64,000 nt of DNA. It comes from Undibacterium hunanense (GTDB lineage Bacteria; Pseudomonadota; Gammaproteobacteria; Burkholderiales; Burkholderiaceae_D). The position numbers and the translations under genes were made by a program. The stretch spans positions 496,001 to 560,000 of the forward strand of contig NZ_JACOGF010000001.1 in the NCBI RefSeq assembly GCF_014284335.1. Direction: 5' to 3'. This document shows, piece by piece, positions 20,665 to 26,762 of the stretch (the stretch's first letter is position 1; the number at the start of each line of letters is the position of its first letter). Under the pieces are notes generated by a model. The model was not told the DNA's origin and made no database searches. It was given only the letters and a program-made list of their open reading frames with translations.

Positions 20665-22311
20665 ATGTTCAGATTGCTACGCACCAGTATCGTCTACCGC
20701 AGCGCCTTCATTGTGCTGGGTATAGCACTGCTCGTGGGTAGTTTCTTTGCCCTGTTCAGCTATCAGTTTTCAGCACAATCCGAACAGGAACAAGCCAATC
20801 AGCGCATGAAAGGATCGCTGAGCACAGTTGAAAGCACTGCCAGTATCGCCTGCTTTTTGCTGGACCAGAATCTGGCTTCAGAACTGGCGCGAGGCTTGCT
20901 GAAGAATGGTGACATCAGTCGCGTACTGATTTTTTCTGACGACAAGATCCTGGCCGAGGCATCCAGGCAGCCGGCACAAAATCAGGCCAATGCCTCACTC
21001 ACGATACTGCCCGACATCAAGACCCCCAATCAACTGGAGCAGGAAATATTCTCCCCCTTCAATGCCAAAGAAAAAGTCTGCAATATCAGGCTTGATCCAA
21101 ATATGGATTTCATTCGCGAACAAAGTTCGTCGAAGGCTCGTTTCATTGTTTATTTATTGCTGGTGCAAGCCCTGGTCATGGCATCTGCAGTTGTGTATGT
21201 CGTACTGACCATGATCACCCGCCCCATCAAAAACATCTCTGACAGACTGCATACCCTGTCGCCTGAATCCGGTGACAAACTGAGCCTGCCAGACGGCAAT
21301 GAAAAAGACGAAATCGGGCAACTGGTGCGTGATGTCAACATGCTCATCGCCAACCTGCTGAAAACACTGAATGAAGAGAGATCCCTGCGTATACGGCATT
21401 CCATAGGCGAAAAGAAATTCCAGACAATTTTTGAAAATGCAGAAACCGGCATTTTCCAACTGAATTTTTCTGCTGAATTATTATCTTACAACCCGGCCTT
21501 CCTGCGCATGTTCAACCTGACAGATGCACATCAGCGCGGCAATCTGTCCCATGTGCTAACCCTGATGCTGGAGGGCCAGGAACTACGCCTGCACCTGATG
21601 ATAGATGCTGCCATCAATGAGAGCAAAGTCATGTCTGATGATTTTTATATACAACTTGGCAGCAGCTCACAAAAGAAATGGATCAACCTGGTCATCAGCC
21701 CTGCCGAGGATGGCATATTGCAGGGTCTGGCGAATGATATTACTGAACGCAAGCTGAAAGAAGAAAACGCCAATCAGCTTGCCGTCACCGACCACCTGAC
21801 AGGGGTTAACAATCGACTAGGATTTGAAAAAGAAATCGCCCGCCTTTCCACGGAACATGCAAACGCTCATGCACAAGGTTTCTTCCTGCTCATGATCGAT
21901 CTGGATAAATTCAAGCAGGTGAATGATACCCACGGGCACACCATCGGTGATCAGGTGTTATGCCATTTCGCCCATATCGTCACCAGTACGGTCAGAAAAT
22001 CCGACTTTGTTGCCAGGCTGGGTGGCGACGAATTCATCATCCTGCTGCAAAACCTGACGCAACAGAGCAAGGCAGAAGAAATCGCGCAAAAAATCATTCA
22101 CCAGACCAGTCAGGACATCGTGATTACTGATGGTGTCTCGGTACAGATAGGTGCCAGCATAGGCATCAGCTATACCGGCCCGCATGCATTTGACCCAAAT
22201 GATTTATTGCGCCGTGCCGATACCGCCATGTATGACGTCAAACGCAGTGGCCGCAATGCCTATCGCGTAGTGAGCCTGGATGGAATTGATACCACCAGAC
22301 ATATTATTTAA
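20665..22311 (+). CDS. Membrane sensor diguanylate cyclase (periplasmic sensor, HAMP, PAS, GGDEF)
   Basis: The 548-residue protein has a transmembrane helix (about 11-33), a periplasmic sensor of about 130 residues, a second helix (about 165-188), a HAMP-like linker (about 190-240), a PAS domain (about 255-360) and a GGDEF domain (about 375-540). The active-site motif GGDEF is at 453-457 and the inhibitory I-site RKSD at 444-447, five residues upstream, so it should be an active, product-inhibited cyclic di-GMP synthase. It starts 7 bp after the binding-protein gene. Its last 8 bp overlap the convergent questin-oxidase-like gene. Confidence 0.93.
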   Translation: MFRLLRTSIVYRSAFIVLGIALLVGSFFALFSYQFSAQSEQEQANQRMKGSLSTVESTASIACFLLDQNLASELARGLLKNGDISRVLIFSDDKILAEASRQPAQNQANASLTILPDIKTPNQLEQEIFSPFNAKEKVCNIRLDPNMDFIREQSSSKARFIVYLLLVQALVMASAVVYVVLTMITRPIKNISDRLHTLSPESGDKLSLPDGNEKDEIGQLVRDVNMLIANLLKTLNEERSLRIRHSIGEKKFQTIFENAETGIFQLNFSAELLSYNPAFLRMFNLTDAHQRGNLSHVLTLMLEGQELRLHLMIDAAINESKVMSDDFYIQLGSSSQKKWINLVISPAEDGILQGLANDITERKLKEENANQLAVTDHLTGVNNRLGFEKEIARLSTEHANAHAQGFFLLMIDLDKFKQVNDTHGHTIGDQVLCHFAHIVTSTVRKSDFVARLGGDEFIILLQNLTQQSKAEEIAQKIIHQTSQDIVITDGVSVQIGASIGISYTGPHAFDPNDLLRRADTAMYDVKRSGRNAYRVVSLDGIDTTRHII

Positions 22312-23371
22312 TGTCCAGCATGCGCATGGCCGCAGCCTGATACAAAGAATGAAAAGGGTGAGCATGCAAACCATATTCACGGGAACAGGTATAGGTAAAT
22401 TTGATGGCATGATCATCATTGTTCAAAATCGCCTGATTGAACAAGTAGTCCCATGACTGCGCCCTGAAGTTGGCCTGTTTCAGATTATCCAGACATTCCT
22501 GTTCCGGGAGTAGTGCAGGTGCGCCGACTGAAGCATAAGCCACACACAGCGCCAGCCATGCATCGCTACATAAAGCCTGCCTGCGCAAAGGGTGCAGACA
22601 AGGAATCAACTGCCTGATCGCATGCACACCGGTCACCATATGCAAAATCGTAAAATCGCCGGTTTGCCAGTAGGCAGCGATTGCCCAGCGCGCCAGTTCA
22701 TCCAGCAGTTGCGAAGTAACAGGCATGGCAGGCAACACCTGTATAAACCGGCGATCCCTAATGACGGCTGCCATCTTTTCGGTAATCATGCGTCCTTCAA
22801 ATTTCTTGCCGCCCATGCCATCGGCAATCTGTCTGAAACCATCTGCAACGGAGCTTGCTGGCAAGCGATCAGATATTGCGGGCATTGCAGACGTTGCAAA
22901 CATTGGTATGTCAATGGCGAAATTAGCGACCACCAATGCCGCCAACCCGGCAGCAATTTCAGCATCATGCCCGGACTGCAGACCATATGACAGACGTATC
23001 AGCGCATGAAATGCCGAAGTCGCCGGCGCTACCGGGATAGTCGCAAGCACCTCCCGCACGACCTCGCTACTGCCACGCTGTGCAATTCTGTGCTGAAAAC
23101 AGTCTTGCAAAGCCGCAAACATGGGGCGTTTTCCCAGACAGGATGCGAAATCGGCATAGTCAACTTCATGCGGCGACACCTCCGCAGGCAGCGAATAATG
23201 CGTGTGCCAATGCTCAAAAAATTCCTCCAGCCGTTCCGCACTGGCACCCATGGCAGCCAATGCCGTCAGGGCCATAGGGCAATGATTGGTAGTTCCCCGC
23301 CCGCCCAGGGCAAATTGACGGTTTTCATCAAGAAGGTGGCGCAGTACAGGATAGGTCGCTAAAGTTTTCAT
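22304..23371 (-). CDS. Questin-oxidase-like protein
   Basis: The 355-residue protein resembles the questin oxidase-like family: an N-terminal GTTNHCPMALTALAAMGAS, then an alpha-helical body with scattered His residues (HWHTHYSLP). Fungal questin oxidase opens the anthraquinone ring of questin in a Baeyer-Villiger-like reaction; bacterial members are mostly uncharacterised. It has no signal peptide. It is divergent from soxR, and the intervening promoter with a 19-bp spacer and central dyad points toward this gene, so SoxR is its probable activator. The inference is a cytoplasmic oxygenase acting on redox-cycling quinones. Family assignment is from motif memory. Confidence 0.75.
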   Translation of the reverse strand: MKTLATYPVLRHLLDENRQFALGGRGTTNHCPMALTALAAMGASAERLEEFFEHWHTHYSLPAEVSPHEVDYADFASCLGKRPMFAALQDCFQHRIAQRGSSEVVREVLATIPVAPATSAFHALIRLSYGLQSGHDAEIAAGLAALVVANFAIDIPMFATSAMPAISDRLPASSVADGFRQIADGMGGKKFEGRMITEKMAAVIRDRRFIQVLPAMPVTSQLLDELARWAIAAYWQTGDFTILHMVTGVHAIRQLIPCLHPLRRQALCSDAWLALCVAYASVGAPALLPEQECLDNLKQANFRAQSWDYLFNQAILNNDDHAIKFTYTCSREYGLHAHPFHSLYQAAAMRMLDIK

Positions 23372-23403
23372 ACATAGTCACCATAAAATGATTGTGTGAA
23401 AAC

Positions 23404-23434
23404 AGTATGCAAGTTAAAGTAAACTTTAAGTCAA
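23404..23434 (-). promoter_or_regulatory. SoxR/MerR-type promoter driving the questin-oxidase-like gene
   Basis: On the minus strand, -35 TTGACT (23434-23429) and -10 CATACT (23409-23404) are separated by exactly 19 bp. In the spacer, TTAAAGT (23414-23420) and ACTTTAA (23423-23429) form a perfect 7-bp-arm dyad. The long 19-bp spacer with a central dyad is the hallmark of MerR-family activated promoters, and the adjacent regulator is SoxR. The promoter reads toward 23371; soxR itself may be autoregulated from the same site. Confidence 0.88.
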
Positions 23435-23454
23435 GGAATTTCTTCTAGAGAAAA

Positions 23455-23934
23455 ATGACTACCAAGGCAAATAACAATCTGATCAGCATAGGTGAGTTGG
23501 CGATACGCTCCGGCATGGCTGCCAGCGCCTTGCGCTTTTACGAATCGCGCGGCCTGATCAACAGCGTGCGCAGCGGCAGTCAGCGCCGTCACTTCGCCCG
23601 GGAAGTACTGCGTCGTGTCGCCTTTATCAAGGCAGCGCAAACAGCCGGTCTGACACTGGAGGAAATAGAAAGCACCCTCGCCAGCCTGCCGGATCAAAGA
23701 ACACCGACCAAACAGGATTGGGAAAAGCTCTCACGTTCATGGCAGGGCTTGATACAGAAGCGCATAGATGACCTGACCGCCTTGCGCGATCAGTTGACAT
23801 CCTGCATAGGCTGCGGCTGCCTGTCACTGAAATCCTGCGCGCTGTACAATCCTGAAGACATCGCAAAAACCAGAGGTAATGGCGCCCGGTATCTGCTGGG
23901 AGACAAACCGGGCAAGCAGCAAAATTCGAAATAA
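23455..23934 (+). CDS. soxR: Redox-sensitive transcriptional activator SoxR
   Basis: The 159-residue MerR-family activator has an N-terminal winged HTH (about 10-80, ISIGELAIRSG ... ALRFYESRGLI), a dimerisation helix, and the [2Fe-2S] cluster cysteines Cys117, Cys120, Cys122 and Cys128 in CIGCGCLSLKSC, the diagnostic SoxR spacing. Oxidation of the cluster by redox-cycling compounds activates target promoters. No soxS is present, as usual outside enterics. The gene is divergent from the questin-oxidase-like gene with an operator between them, and it ends 10 bp from the convergent rmuC. Confidence 0.96.
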   Translation: MTTKANNNLISIGELAIRSGMAASALRFYESRGLINSVRSGSQRRHFAREVLRRVAFIKAAQTAGLTLEEIESTLASLPDQRTPTKQDWEKLSRSWQGLIQKRIDDLTALRDQLTSCIGCGCLSLKSCALYNPEDIAKTRGNGARYLLGDKPGKQQNSK

Positions 23935-23944
23935 ATTCCGGCTT

Positions 23945-25633
23945 TTACTCCGTATCAGCGTCCGCCATATCCGTACTGGTACCCAGCAGGCTTTGCGCAG
24001 TATCGGACGGCAAGGCTTCCACACTTTTCAATTTACGTGTCATCTGGCGGGTTCTGACTTCTGCCTGATCGATGTTCCTGGCAGCTTTTTCCAATGCCAT
24101 CTTGGTCGCGGTCAATACATCTGCAAATTTGCCGAATTCTGTTTTGACTGCCCCCAGCACTTGCCAGACTTCAGATGAGCGTTGTTCCAGCACCAGACTG
24201 CGGAAGCCCATTTGCAGGCTGTTCAACAGGGCCGACAAGGTTGACGGTCCGGAAATCGATACGCGACAGGTACGCTGCAAATCATCTGCCAGCCCTGGCC
24301 GACGCATGACTTCGGCGTACAGGCCTTCGGTAGGCAAGAACAGGATGGCAAAATCTGTCGTCAACGGTGGTGACAGATATTTTTCAGCAATCGTTTTGGC
24401 TTCGCTGCGTATGGCACGTTCCAGTTCTTTGCCAAACTGGGCTACCCCTTCTGCATCTGCCCGTTCAGCAGCATCCAGCAGACGCTCATACTGTTCTTTG
24501 GGGAACTTGGCATCAATCGGTAACCATACCGGTGCCTTGTTATCTTCTTTGCCGGGCAGCTTGATGGCGAACTCCACCCTCTCCCCTGTGCCAGGCACGG
24601 TTTCCACATTTTTTGCATACTGGTCTGGCGTCAGCATCTGTTCCAGCACCATTTCAAGTTGCACTTCACCCCAGGTGCCGCGGGTTTTGACATTCGTCAG
24701 TACCCGCTTGAGGTCACCGACACCGATAGCCAGTTGCTGCATCTCACCTAGGCCCTGATGTACCTTGTCCAGGCGATCAGATACCAGTTTGAATGATTCG
24801 CCCAGACGTTGCTCCAGTGTTGCGTGCAATTTTTCATCCACAGTCTTGCGCATCTCTTCGAGCTTGCCTGCATTGTCTGCCTGCAGTTGCTGTATCTTTT
24901 GTTCCAGCGTGGTACGGATTTCGTTCAGGCGTTGCGCATTGGATTCCGTCAGGCTTAACAAAGCCTGATTCAGACTATCACCAAAGCGTTTCAGGCTTTG
25001 CGCCTGCTCTTCCCGTCCAGCCTGTCCCTGCAAGGTGAAAGCCTGACGTATCTGTTCCAACTGTAGTGCATTGGTCTCGTTAAGCTTTACCAATTGCTGA
25101 GAAAATGCATCGACCTGCGTCTGTAAAGTCGCCCGCACTTCATTCATGCGATTGGCGTTAGATTCTGTCAGACTAAGTAGAGACTGATTCAGGACGTCAC
25201 CAAAATGCTTCAGCCCTTTTGCCTGTTCTTCACGCGCCACCTGCCCCTGCAGGGTGAAGGTCTGGCGTATCTGTTCCAGTTGCTGGGCATTGGTGTCGTT
25301 AAGCTTGACCAGTTGCTGAGAAAACGCATCAATCTGGGCATTCTGAAAAGTCGCCACACTGGTCAACTGTGCAGCCAAAGCCTGCTGCAACTGAGTGAAG
25401 TTGCTACCCAGTTCCTGACGGCTGGTCTGTGCAGTCAGTTGCATCTGCTCACGCAGGGAACGCTCACTGCGCTCTTGCGTCAACTGTGCCTGCTGCTGCG
25501 TTTGCAGCAACTGGTCAAGGATGGTTTTCAGGTCAGCGGCATCACTGCCAGCTTTGCTGCGCATCAACACCAGGATAACCAGTACCATCAACACCAGCAG
25601 TGCGAGGAGAATAACGGTTTCAAACATGCTCAT
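23945..25633 (-). CDS. rmuC: DNA recombination protein RmuC
   Basis: The 562-residue protein has an N-terminal membrane helix (about 5-24), a long coiled coil (about 35-300) and the RmuC nuclease-like core (about 300-510) with GTWGEVQLE, PIDAKFP and FLPTEGLYAEV. RmuC limits inversion at short inverted repeats and has been linked to defence against mobile elements. Residues 101-173 and 174-246 are a tandem duplication within the coiled coil, making this protein longer in that region than the E. coli version. It is convergent with soxR and is upstream of a truncated hemoglobin gene on the same strand order. Confidence 0.94.
   Translation of the reverse strand: MSMFETVILLALLVLMVLVILVLMRSKAGSDAADLKTILDQLLQTQQQAQLTQERSERSLREQMQLTAQTSRQELGSNFTQLQQALAAQLTSVATFQNAQIDAFSQQLVKLNDTNAQQLEQIRQTFTLQGQVAREEQAKGLKHFGDVLNQSLLSLTESNANRMNEVRATLQTQVDAFSQQLVKLNETNALQLEQIRQAFTLQGQAGREEQAQSLKRFGDSLNQALLSLTESNAQRLNEIRTTLEQKIQQLQADNAGKLEEMRKTVDEKLHATLEQRLGESFKLVSDRLDKVHQGLGEMQQLAIGVGDLKRVLTNVKTRGTWGEVQLEMVLEQMLTPDQYAKNVETVPGTGERVEFAIKLPGKEDNKAPVWLPIDAKFPKEQYERLLDAAERADAEGVAQFGKELERAIRSEAKTIAEKYLSPPLTTDFAILFLPTEGLYAEVMRRPGLADDLQRTCRVSISGPSTLSALLNSLQMGFRSLVLEQRSSEVWQVLGAVKTEFGKFADVLTATKMALEKAARNIDQAEVRTRQMTRKLKSVEALPSDTAQSLLGTSTDMADADTE
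24896..25333 (-). repeat. 219-bp in-frame tandem duplication inside rmuC
   Basis: Two copies of a 73-codon unit occupy 25333-25115 and 25114-24896. The encoded units begin IDAFSQQLVKLN and VDAFSQQLVKLN and end SLTESNANRMNE and SLTESNAQRLNE; about three quarters of positions agree. The unit extends the coiled coil without a frame change. Confidence 0.9.
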
Positions 25634-25675: not shown

Positions 25676-26089
25676 CTAGCCTGGATGATTTCGCATCCAG
25701 TCTGCGGTCTGGTAAAACGACTGCATCAAATGCAGTTTCAAGTCTTCGGCCACACCCTGATCTTCCATGGCCCAGGCCATGCAACGCAACCACTGATCGC
25801 GTTCACTGCTGGCAATCGCATACGGTAAATGACGGGCACGCAGACGCGGATGACCAAACTGTTCAATATACAGATTGGGGCCACCCATCCATCCCGACAA
25901 AAACCAATACAGCTTATCGCGTGAACCATTCATCGGTGAAGGATGCAGAGCCCGTATGCCAGCAAATTCTGGCTCCAGTTCCATCAAGTCATAAAAACGG
26001 TCAACCAGTGCCCGCAGCTTATCGGCCCCGCCGATCAATTCATATAAATTGACCTGTGCTTCTTCATTATTTTCAGTATAAGTACTCAT
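25676..26089 (-). CDS. Group II truncated hemoglobin
   Basis: The 137-residue protein has the 2/2 globin pattern of group II (TrHbO) proteins: YELIGGADKLRALVDRFYDLM at the N terminus with the helix-B Phe-Tyr, LSGWMGGPNLY, then the proximal His region FGHPRLRARHLPYAI, and the Trp-rich C-terminal helix RDQWLRCMAWAM. Such globins bind O2 or NO and are tied to stress protection. ATG 26089 is preceded by AGGAAGTG and gives the normal length; a longer frame upstream runs into the GST gene and is rejected. It is probably co-transcribed with that GST gene, 34 bp upstream. Confidence 0.93.
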   Translation of the reverse strand: MSTYTENNEEAQVNLYELIGGADKLRALVDRFYDLMELEPEFAGIRALHPSPMNGSRDKLYWFLSGWMGGPNLYIEQFGHPRLRARHLPYAIASSERDQWLRCMAWAMEDQGVAEDLKLHLMQSFYQTADWMRNHPG

Positions 26090-26123
26090 TAACACTTCCT
26101 GCCATTCCTGCGATTCCTGCCAA

Positions 26124-26762
26124 TCATGCCTGCAAGGCGGGTCTTTGCTGCTGCATCCACAATTGTACGGTTGGCCTTTGCCATTGCTTATGCGCAAAAT
26201 TGGCCAGCTTTTCTGGTACATCGTCACCATGCATGACCAGTCTGTTGATCATCAATGCCAGGTCAAGATCGGCAATACACCATGTGCCGAACAGATTATC
26301 TGCTCCCTCTTTCAACAGCGATTCGCCAACCAAAAATAATTGTTGTGCCGCCTCTTTGGCAGCATCTGACAAGGGAGCCAGACGACTGCCATAAAAAATG
26401 ACCTGGGTATTGCGTTCAACCCGTATCGGCATCAGGGCGCTGCGTAACCAGGCCTGTATTTGTCTCGCTCTTGCCCTGTCCCTGACATCCTTGGGGTACA
26501 CCGTAATACCGGGAAAAACATCATCCAGATATTCGGTGATGGCGGATGACTCGGACAAGGCAAAGCCATTGTGCACCAGGGTGGGTACACGCTGCGTCAG
26601 GGATTTCGCGGCATACTCACCGGTATGCTGTGCGTTGGCATCCAGGTCTACGGTATGCACATCAAATTCGAGTCCTTTTTCATGCAGAGTCACAAAAACC
26701 GACATGGCATAAGGACTGGTAAATTGTGCATCCACGTACAGCTGCAAAGCTTGTTTTTCCAT
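26124..26762 (-). CDS. yfcF: Glutathione S-transferase, YfcF-like
   Basis: The 212-residue cytosolic GST has an N-terminal thioredoxin-fold domain (about 1-82) with SPYAMSVFVTLHEKGLEF, the cis-Pro segment QRVPTLVHNG and the glutathione-binding SESSAITEYL. It has an all-helical C-terminal domain with the N-cap Asp in CIADLDLALMINR. The SPYAMS start matches E. coli YfcF, which has GST and peroxidase activity and aids oxidative-stress tolerance. It precedes the truncated hemoglobin gene; the two may form a small detoxification operon. The symbol is by resemblance. Confidence 0.85.
   Translation of the reverse strand: MEKQALQLYVDAQFTSPYAMSVFVTLHEKGLEFDVHTVDLDANAQHTGEYAAKSLTQRVPTLVHNGFALSESSAITEYLDDVFPGITVYPKDVRDRARARQIQAWLRSALMPIRVERNTQVIFYGSRLAPLSDAAKEAAQQLFLVGESLLKEGADNLFGTWCIADLDLALMINRLVMHGDDVPEKLANFAHKQWQRPTVQLWMQQQRPALQA

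Follow-up and report, generated by a model that had tools for sequence, protein, structure and literature searches.

We analyzed a 64,000-nucleotide stretch of the 6.28-Mb genome of Undibacterium hunanense (contig NZ_JACOGF010000001.1, positions 496,001 to 560,000), here called the window, which carries soxR divergent from a questin-oxidase-like gene (QOL). The two genes are separated by an 83-bp gap that holds a predicted SoxR-type promoter. The features are listed below with their window positions.

22304-23371, minus strand: QOL, 355 amino acids (aa), PF14027.
23404-23434, minus strand: predicted SoxR-type promoter of QOL, with a dyad inside its 19-bp spacer.
23434-23429, minus strand: -35 element of the QOL promoter, TTGACT.
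23409-23404, minus strand: -10 element of the QOL promoter, CATACT, its end 32 nt upstream of the QOL ATG.
23455-23934, plus strand: soxR, 159 aa, with a MerR-type helix-turn-helix, CX2CXCX5C cysteines, and the LYN/RYLLGD C-terminal subtype.

The SoxR of the window scored 200.4 bits against the TIGR01950 equivalog model (cut-off, 116.9), and its residues 9 to 148 aligned with the SoxR structure 2zhg (E value, 1.1e-37). Within it, CIGCGCLSLKSC satisfies the CX2CXCX5C pattern of the [2Fe-2S] cluster, in agreement with an earlier reading made from the letters of the window without database searches (the sequence-only reading), which had noted a soxR with intact Fe-S cysteines divergent from the oxidase-like gene. 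QOL matched PF14027 over profile positions 3 to 339 of 340 (E value, 1.2e-30; 107.7 bits versus a gathering cut-off of 27). The whole genome contains one gene above the TIGR01950 cut-off and one PF14027 gene. The 3' end of QOL shares 8 nt with the end of a convergent GGDEF gene, and QOL is therefore an apparent single-gene unit, while soxR reads toward a convergent gene at 23945-25633.

SoxR target promoters have spacers of 19 to 20 bp. On the minus strand, positions 23434 to 23404 read TTGACT, 19 bp, and CATACT, aimed at QOL as the sequence-only reading had it, with a dyad between the -35 and -10 elements. This dyad, TTAAAGT-TT-ACTTTAA, had been described there as perfect; its 7-bp arms are, but the TT center is mispaired (7 of 9 half-site positions). 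A sigma-70 scan with spacers of 16 to 18 bp did not list the QOL promoter, in keeping with its longer spacer of 19 bp. The operator core is comparable to the Escherichia coli consensus quoted in the available part of PMC4411124. When up to 3 mismatches were allowed, the operator pattern had a single match in the window and none in 100 dinucleotide shuffles. Genome-wide, a single site matched exactly, and the next best were 16 sites with 3 mismatches (none had 1 or 2), fewer than the 37 of the latter kind for a reversed-pattern control (pattern and control were both written after the window site and its relatives had been seen). A matrix made from 28 sites outside Undibacterium gave the window operator 44.6 bits, compared with a maximum of 7.4 in three shuffled windows.

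Among 36 genomes of the genus, including that of the window, SoxR and QOL occurred together in the same 11 and both were missing from the other 25, although the genomes are related and this match does not represent 11 independent events. At all 11 loci, soxR is divergent from QOL, and a zero-mismatch operator lies between the two genes. A paired change from TTCAAGT/ACTTGAA to TTAAAGT/ACTTTAA, seen in the window and at locus L032 among others, keeps the dyad. At a limit of 1 mismatch, 16 sites turned up in these 11 genomes; 11 of them lie at QOL and the other 5 each at a second soxR gene, which leaves the QOL-linked SoxR with a predicted regulon of one gene. A further 9 sites have 2 mismatches, making 25 at up to 2 mismatches versus 47 for the reversed-pattern control. 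The second SoxR, found in 5 of the 11 genomes, belongs to a different type (LRN) and has its own box; its neighbor is a flavin mononucleotide reductase at L110 and L112 and a SnoaL-like protein at L137 and L138. In a set of 60 relatives, SoxR and QOL were each present in 12 genomes and together in 11 (SoxR alone in G057, QOL alone in G055). The QOL of genome G014 (L017, 1501-2535) has one internal TAG; the soxR frame and the operator of that genome show no obvious damage.

Beyond the genus, two short peptide patterns run against genome_contigs (84,980 species) brought up 113 relatives of QOL, of which we kept the best 80 loci; 9 of these repeat genomes of the set of 60 relatives. To call a box, we required a score of at least 30 bits from the matrix of 28 sites in the 450 bp preceding QOL (the training sites are in-sample, those of Undibacterium out-of-sample). 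The operator was found at 51 of the best 80 loci. It was oriented to QOL in every one of them and lay 31 to 65 nt ahead of the called QOL start in 48. A divergent soxR with the Fe-S motif was called by script at 46 of the best 80 loci, and the operator was present in 46 of 46, so that the divergent pair with its dyad, which the sequence-only reading had proposed looking for in other genomes, is indeed recurrent. At L057, soxR was mis-called by the script and found by tblastn, and at L063 it exists in two pieces only. The genera with a box include Undibacterium, Collimonas, Glaciimonas, Paraburkholderia, Burkholderia, Roseateles/Pelomonas, Ideonella, Rhizobacter, Amantichitinum, and Aeromonas, and the soxR-QOL pair occurs in several bacterial families. 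In viral contigs, we found no relative of QOL, while 78 of 72,556 plasmid records had one, all from Rhizobium and all below 60% identity. None of the 6 features listed for the one Rhizobium record examined is a soxR. On a Rhizobium plasmid (L171; NZ_CP104141.1, 87129-94064), QOL stands in a row with an NAD(P)/FAD oxidoreductase, amidohydrolases, and an 8-oxoguanine deaminase.

Given that the operator is only 20 bp ahead of the soxR start codon, it could in principle serve the autoregulation of soxR alone, with QOL as a chance divergent neighbor; according to the available part of PMC4411124, one SoxR box in Stenotrophomonas maltophilia serves both the target and soxR. We find this explanation hardly credible, because the orientation and distance are fixed to QOL and because the operator stays at QOL in four cases in the absence of an adjacent soxR (L034, L051, L074, and L143). 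The loci of the first three lack soxR altogether; in the fourth, genome G060, a QOL with operator is found ca. 1.47 Mb from soxR (L034 and G060, whose sites are identical in sequence, may be closely related). At locus L067, from Aeromonas rivuli, soxR starts 295 bp away, and the operator is still beside QOL. These cases argue for a promoter element that belongs to QOL, and we rejected a box devoted to autoregulation only.

The SoxR proteins linked to QOL also appear to form a distinct type. A midpoint-rooted tree of 76 SoxR sequences placed them within a group of 55 (support of 94/89, just under the threshold, with long branches flagged). In all 55, LYN follows the final cysteine of the cluster, and 45 have an RYL-type end. 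The 18 LRN sequences formed a separate group (100/98), with three others lying between, and the QOL label required 5 changes on the tree. Only 5 of the 55 LYN sequences were not labeled as QOL adjacent, and one of these (L097) is in fact adjacent and was missed by the label threshold. Since most rows of the tree had entered via QOL, a sample of the order provides a fairer count. Among 300 genomes of the order, which like the other co-occurrence genomes are not phylogenetically independent, SoxR was present in 22, QOL in 11, both in 6, and both adjacent in 4. There were 24 SoxR genes in the order sample, 8 of LYN type and 16 not. For the 8 LYN genes, QOL was adjacent in 4 and elsewhere with a box in 1, a different protein (discussed below) took its place in 2, and neither was found in 1. 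Adjacency to QOL was thus 4 of 8 for LYN versus 0 of 16 for the other SoxRs (Fisher P, 0.0066, ignoring kinship between genomes). The SoxR family may have diverged into lineages, each with its own kind of target.

In order to characterize the enzyme, we built a profile from 42 bacterial sequences (the window, L010, and 40 of the best 80 loci). Against PDB, it matched BTG13 (E value, 3.7e-13), the hydroquinone dioxygenase PaD (1.1e-12), and AflY (1.1e-8), which we take to be fungal enzymes, and together with the Pfam match this bears out the earlier assignment to the questin-oxidase family. QOL H30, H122, H244, H321, and K324 align with BTG13 H55, H158, H296, H374, and K377, and the same four histidines and lysine also align with PaD and AflY; QOL T247 aligns with BTG13 T299. 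In BTG13, the four histidines and a carboxylated Lys377 presumably hold iron. None of the 81 aligned proteins departed from H30, H122, and H244, and none of the 80 with letters at the other two positions departed from H321 and K324. The invariance of H30, M33, and H244 is partly selected, because they lie inside the scan patterns; H122, R126, T247, H321, and K324 lie outside. Eight homologues from other searches agreed at the conserved positions, with one exception from Rhizobium. Pfam revealed neither a flavin nor an NAD(P)H domain in QOL, so NADPH would be required only for reduction of the substrate. The conserved residues fit a metal-dependent, ring-cleaving oxygenase, which refines the type of enzyme first proposed.

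A different protein takes the place of QOL at L163 (2019-3311) and L164 (2011-3285) in genomes G160 and G262, where 425 to 431 aa are encoded opposite a LYN-type SoxR and a QOL-type operator. This protein had no Pfam, NCBIfam, or useful PDB match. Its motifs HAP, HAPIL, THCLT, and HLAK are spaced like the histidines and lysine of QOL, and hhalign gave a probability of 3.6% over 40 columns for the comparison with QOL. The hidden Markov model scores of the two proteins, 6.3 and 7.1 bits (matched by 1 and 2 of 1,000 shuffles), are no evidence of kinship with QOL, because a 96-aa frame at L152 with no sign of kinship reached 8.4 bits with the same model. A search for relatives recovered just these two proteins, whether among 399 genomes of the order or among 64 of the family, and none in plasmids. 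Its motif order and genomic place make it possibly a remote member of the QOL fold, which is statistically unproven.

Taken together, co-occurrence, conserved divergence, the conserved operator, and its retention at QOL when soxR is elsewhere strongly support, at the level of sequence, the control of QOL by SoxR that the sequence-only reading had advanced. Its second proposal, a quinone-degrading defense enzyme, is one that we also infer from the family and the regulator, but questin itself is not supported as the substrate, since one fungal active-site histidine is a methionine here. By analogy with studied SoxRs, redox-cycling compounds (quinones and phenazines) would oxidize the [2Fe-2S] cluster, and oxidized SoxR on the dyad would distort the over-long promoter so that RNA polymerase can start. 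QOL would be an iron dioxygenase with a putative metal site of four histidines and one lysine. Cellular reductases would turn the inducing quinone into the hydroquinone, most likely the form that QOL attacks, and opening of the ring would end the redox cycling. We assign a probability of roughly 0.73 to this reading, in which SoxR governs a single gene and the product of that gene cleaves quinones, probably in their hydroquinone form. A broader version, in which the LYN lineage has become the dedicated regulator of a hydroquinone-cleaving iron dioxygenase and provides a one-gene response to redox cyclers across Beta- and Gammaproteobacteria, with the L163/L164 protein possibly an unrecognized remote member of the same fold, is more tentative, and we would place it somewhat below even odds.

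Several findings weigh against the interpretation of QOL as the quinone-cleaving target of a dedicated SoxR. Neither soxR nor a box was present at 29 of the best 80 QOL loci, which show other contexts such as gshB operons. In the order, 16 of 300 genomes have SoxR and no PF14027 protein, and G330 carries an LRN-type SoxR at a distance from its QOL, with the 3 kb surrounding that QOL devoid of a box. The operator scan within the genus covered 30 genomes, and 7 of the 19 that have neither SoxR nor QOL carry an operator-like site with 0 to 1 mismatches, in all 7 cases next to a short gene for a MerR-type protein that lacks this motif of SoxR, the Fe-S cysteines. On the side of the enzyme, one Rhizobium homologue (L171) has serine at the lysine position. 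In addition, the position of BTG13 H58, part of an NHxxH motif present in BTG13, PaD, and AflY (and mutated to F in 7y3x), is methionine in 81 of 81 aligned bacterial proteins and in 8 of 8 further homologues (Met33 in the window). QOL thus lacks the BTG13-type His58, and its chemistry may differ from that of the fungal enzymes.

The idea that the operator core is private to SoxR by sequence was rejected, given the near-identical sites at other MerR-type genes in seven congeners. These genes (L174, L177, L179, L180, L182, L185, and L190) lack the Fe-S motif, have an AVC...C tail, and possess SoxR-like operators. At L174, L177, L179, L185, and L190, a gene for an apparent thiopurine-type methyltransferase, recognized by eye, lies across the site.

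In 11 of the best 80 loci, belonging to the Rubrivivax/Aquabacterium group, QOL follows an apparent glutathione synthetase gene (gshB), with a 4-nt overlap in six; the synthetase was confirmed by Pfam in 5 of 5 tested and recognized by eye in the others.

QOL directly behind gshB, without soxR or box: L078, L090, L094, L095, L099, L102, L103, L106, L107, and, on short contigs, L076 and L077.

In a QOL tree, the box and gshB labels (the latter 11 loci, assigned by eye) separated cleanly, leaving out of the count 17 unlabeled rows that lie inside, and the midpoint root divided the box rows into sets of 39 and 13. The arrangement with gshB may represent a second link of the PF14027 family to thiol/electrophile defense. 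Alternatively, SoxR could induce QOL for general stress metabolism, acting on some other aromatic or oxidized metabolite instead of a quinone. This would be in line with the gshB neighborhood, with the amidohydrolases and 8-oxoguanine deaminase in Rhizobium, with the positions of QOL downstream of PrpF at L037 and of an AMP-ligase frame at L075, and with the change from H58 to methionine. However, SoxR inducers are redox cyclers, the targets of non-enteric SoxRs described in the available part of PMC4146615 are small-molecule-modifying enzymes and transporters, and the relatives of known structure bear the names questin oxidase, hydroquinone dioxygenase PaD, and AflY. We therefore judge a non-quinone substrate to be unlikely, if by no means negligible. 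Under the preferred reading of quinone cleavage, QOL would be a metal oxygenase built on the BTG13/PaD/AflY framework, and its changed second sphere (H58 to methionine) points to a quinone or hydroquinone that is probably different from those of the fungal enzymes.

A further alternative is that the bacterium has a redox-active metabolite of its own and uses the pair to make or process it, for which Streptomyces and Pseudomonas offer a precedent (available part of PMC4146615). The linkage of soxR and QOL spans unrelated genera, and the tested neighbors (GGDEF, truncated globin, and glutathione S-transferase) are not biosynthetic, with 23945-25633 unsearched and no biosynthetic-cluster search made of the genome. 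We consider this very improbable. Near the pair, at 25676-26762 of the window, the truncated bacterial globin and the glutathione S-transferase are encoded on the same strand in overlapping frames.

If induction by SoxR and ring cleavage by QOL are both correct, bacterial PF14027 proteins would gain a role, the destruction of redox-cycling quinones under direct SoxR control. Ring cleavage would join a set of SoxR targets that, in the sections of PMC4146615 available to us, consists so far of transporters and small-molecule-modifying redox enzymes. Furthermore, the 5 of 11 SoxR-bearing genomes of the genus with both SoxR types make the inducers directly comparable.

Our literature searches found nothing published on the pairing of SoxR and a questin oxidase, although the Dietrich 2008 survey may list the gene. 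That SoxR controls small-molecule-modifying enzymes is already established. The available part of PMC4146615 describes non-enteric SoxRs with the CX2CXCX5C motif as directly controlling few genes, for such enzymes and for transporters, with the regulons of Pseudomonas aeruginosa (the monooxygenase PA2274 and transporters) and Streptomyces coelicolor (six genes) as examples. Compared with these, the system described here has a PF14027 protein as its target, a single predicted target, and a distinct LYN-type group of SoxR. A soxR from Paraburkholderia complements a P. aeruginosa soxR mutant, as stated in the available part of PMC8859910. In its enzyme, the system is related to BTG13 (7y3w, 7y3x, and 7y3y), PaD (8z4q), and AflY (8yxs) by profile homology and the aligned four histidines and lysine, while QOL is bacterial and linked to SoxR, has 355 aa versus chains of 444 to 473 aa, and carries NHxxM in place of NHxxH. 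In its layout, the closest likeness is to soxR-mfsA of S. maltophilia, a head-to-head pair with the box between the -35 and -10 elements of the target, induced by menadione, plumbagin, and paraquat (from the available part of PMC4411124). The divergent arrangement and the position of the box are shared with soxR-QOL, but the target there is an efflux pump of the major facilitator superfamily, whereas here it is predicted to be an enzyme.

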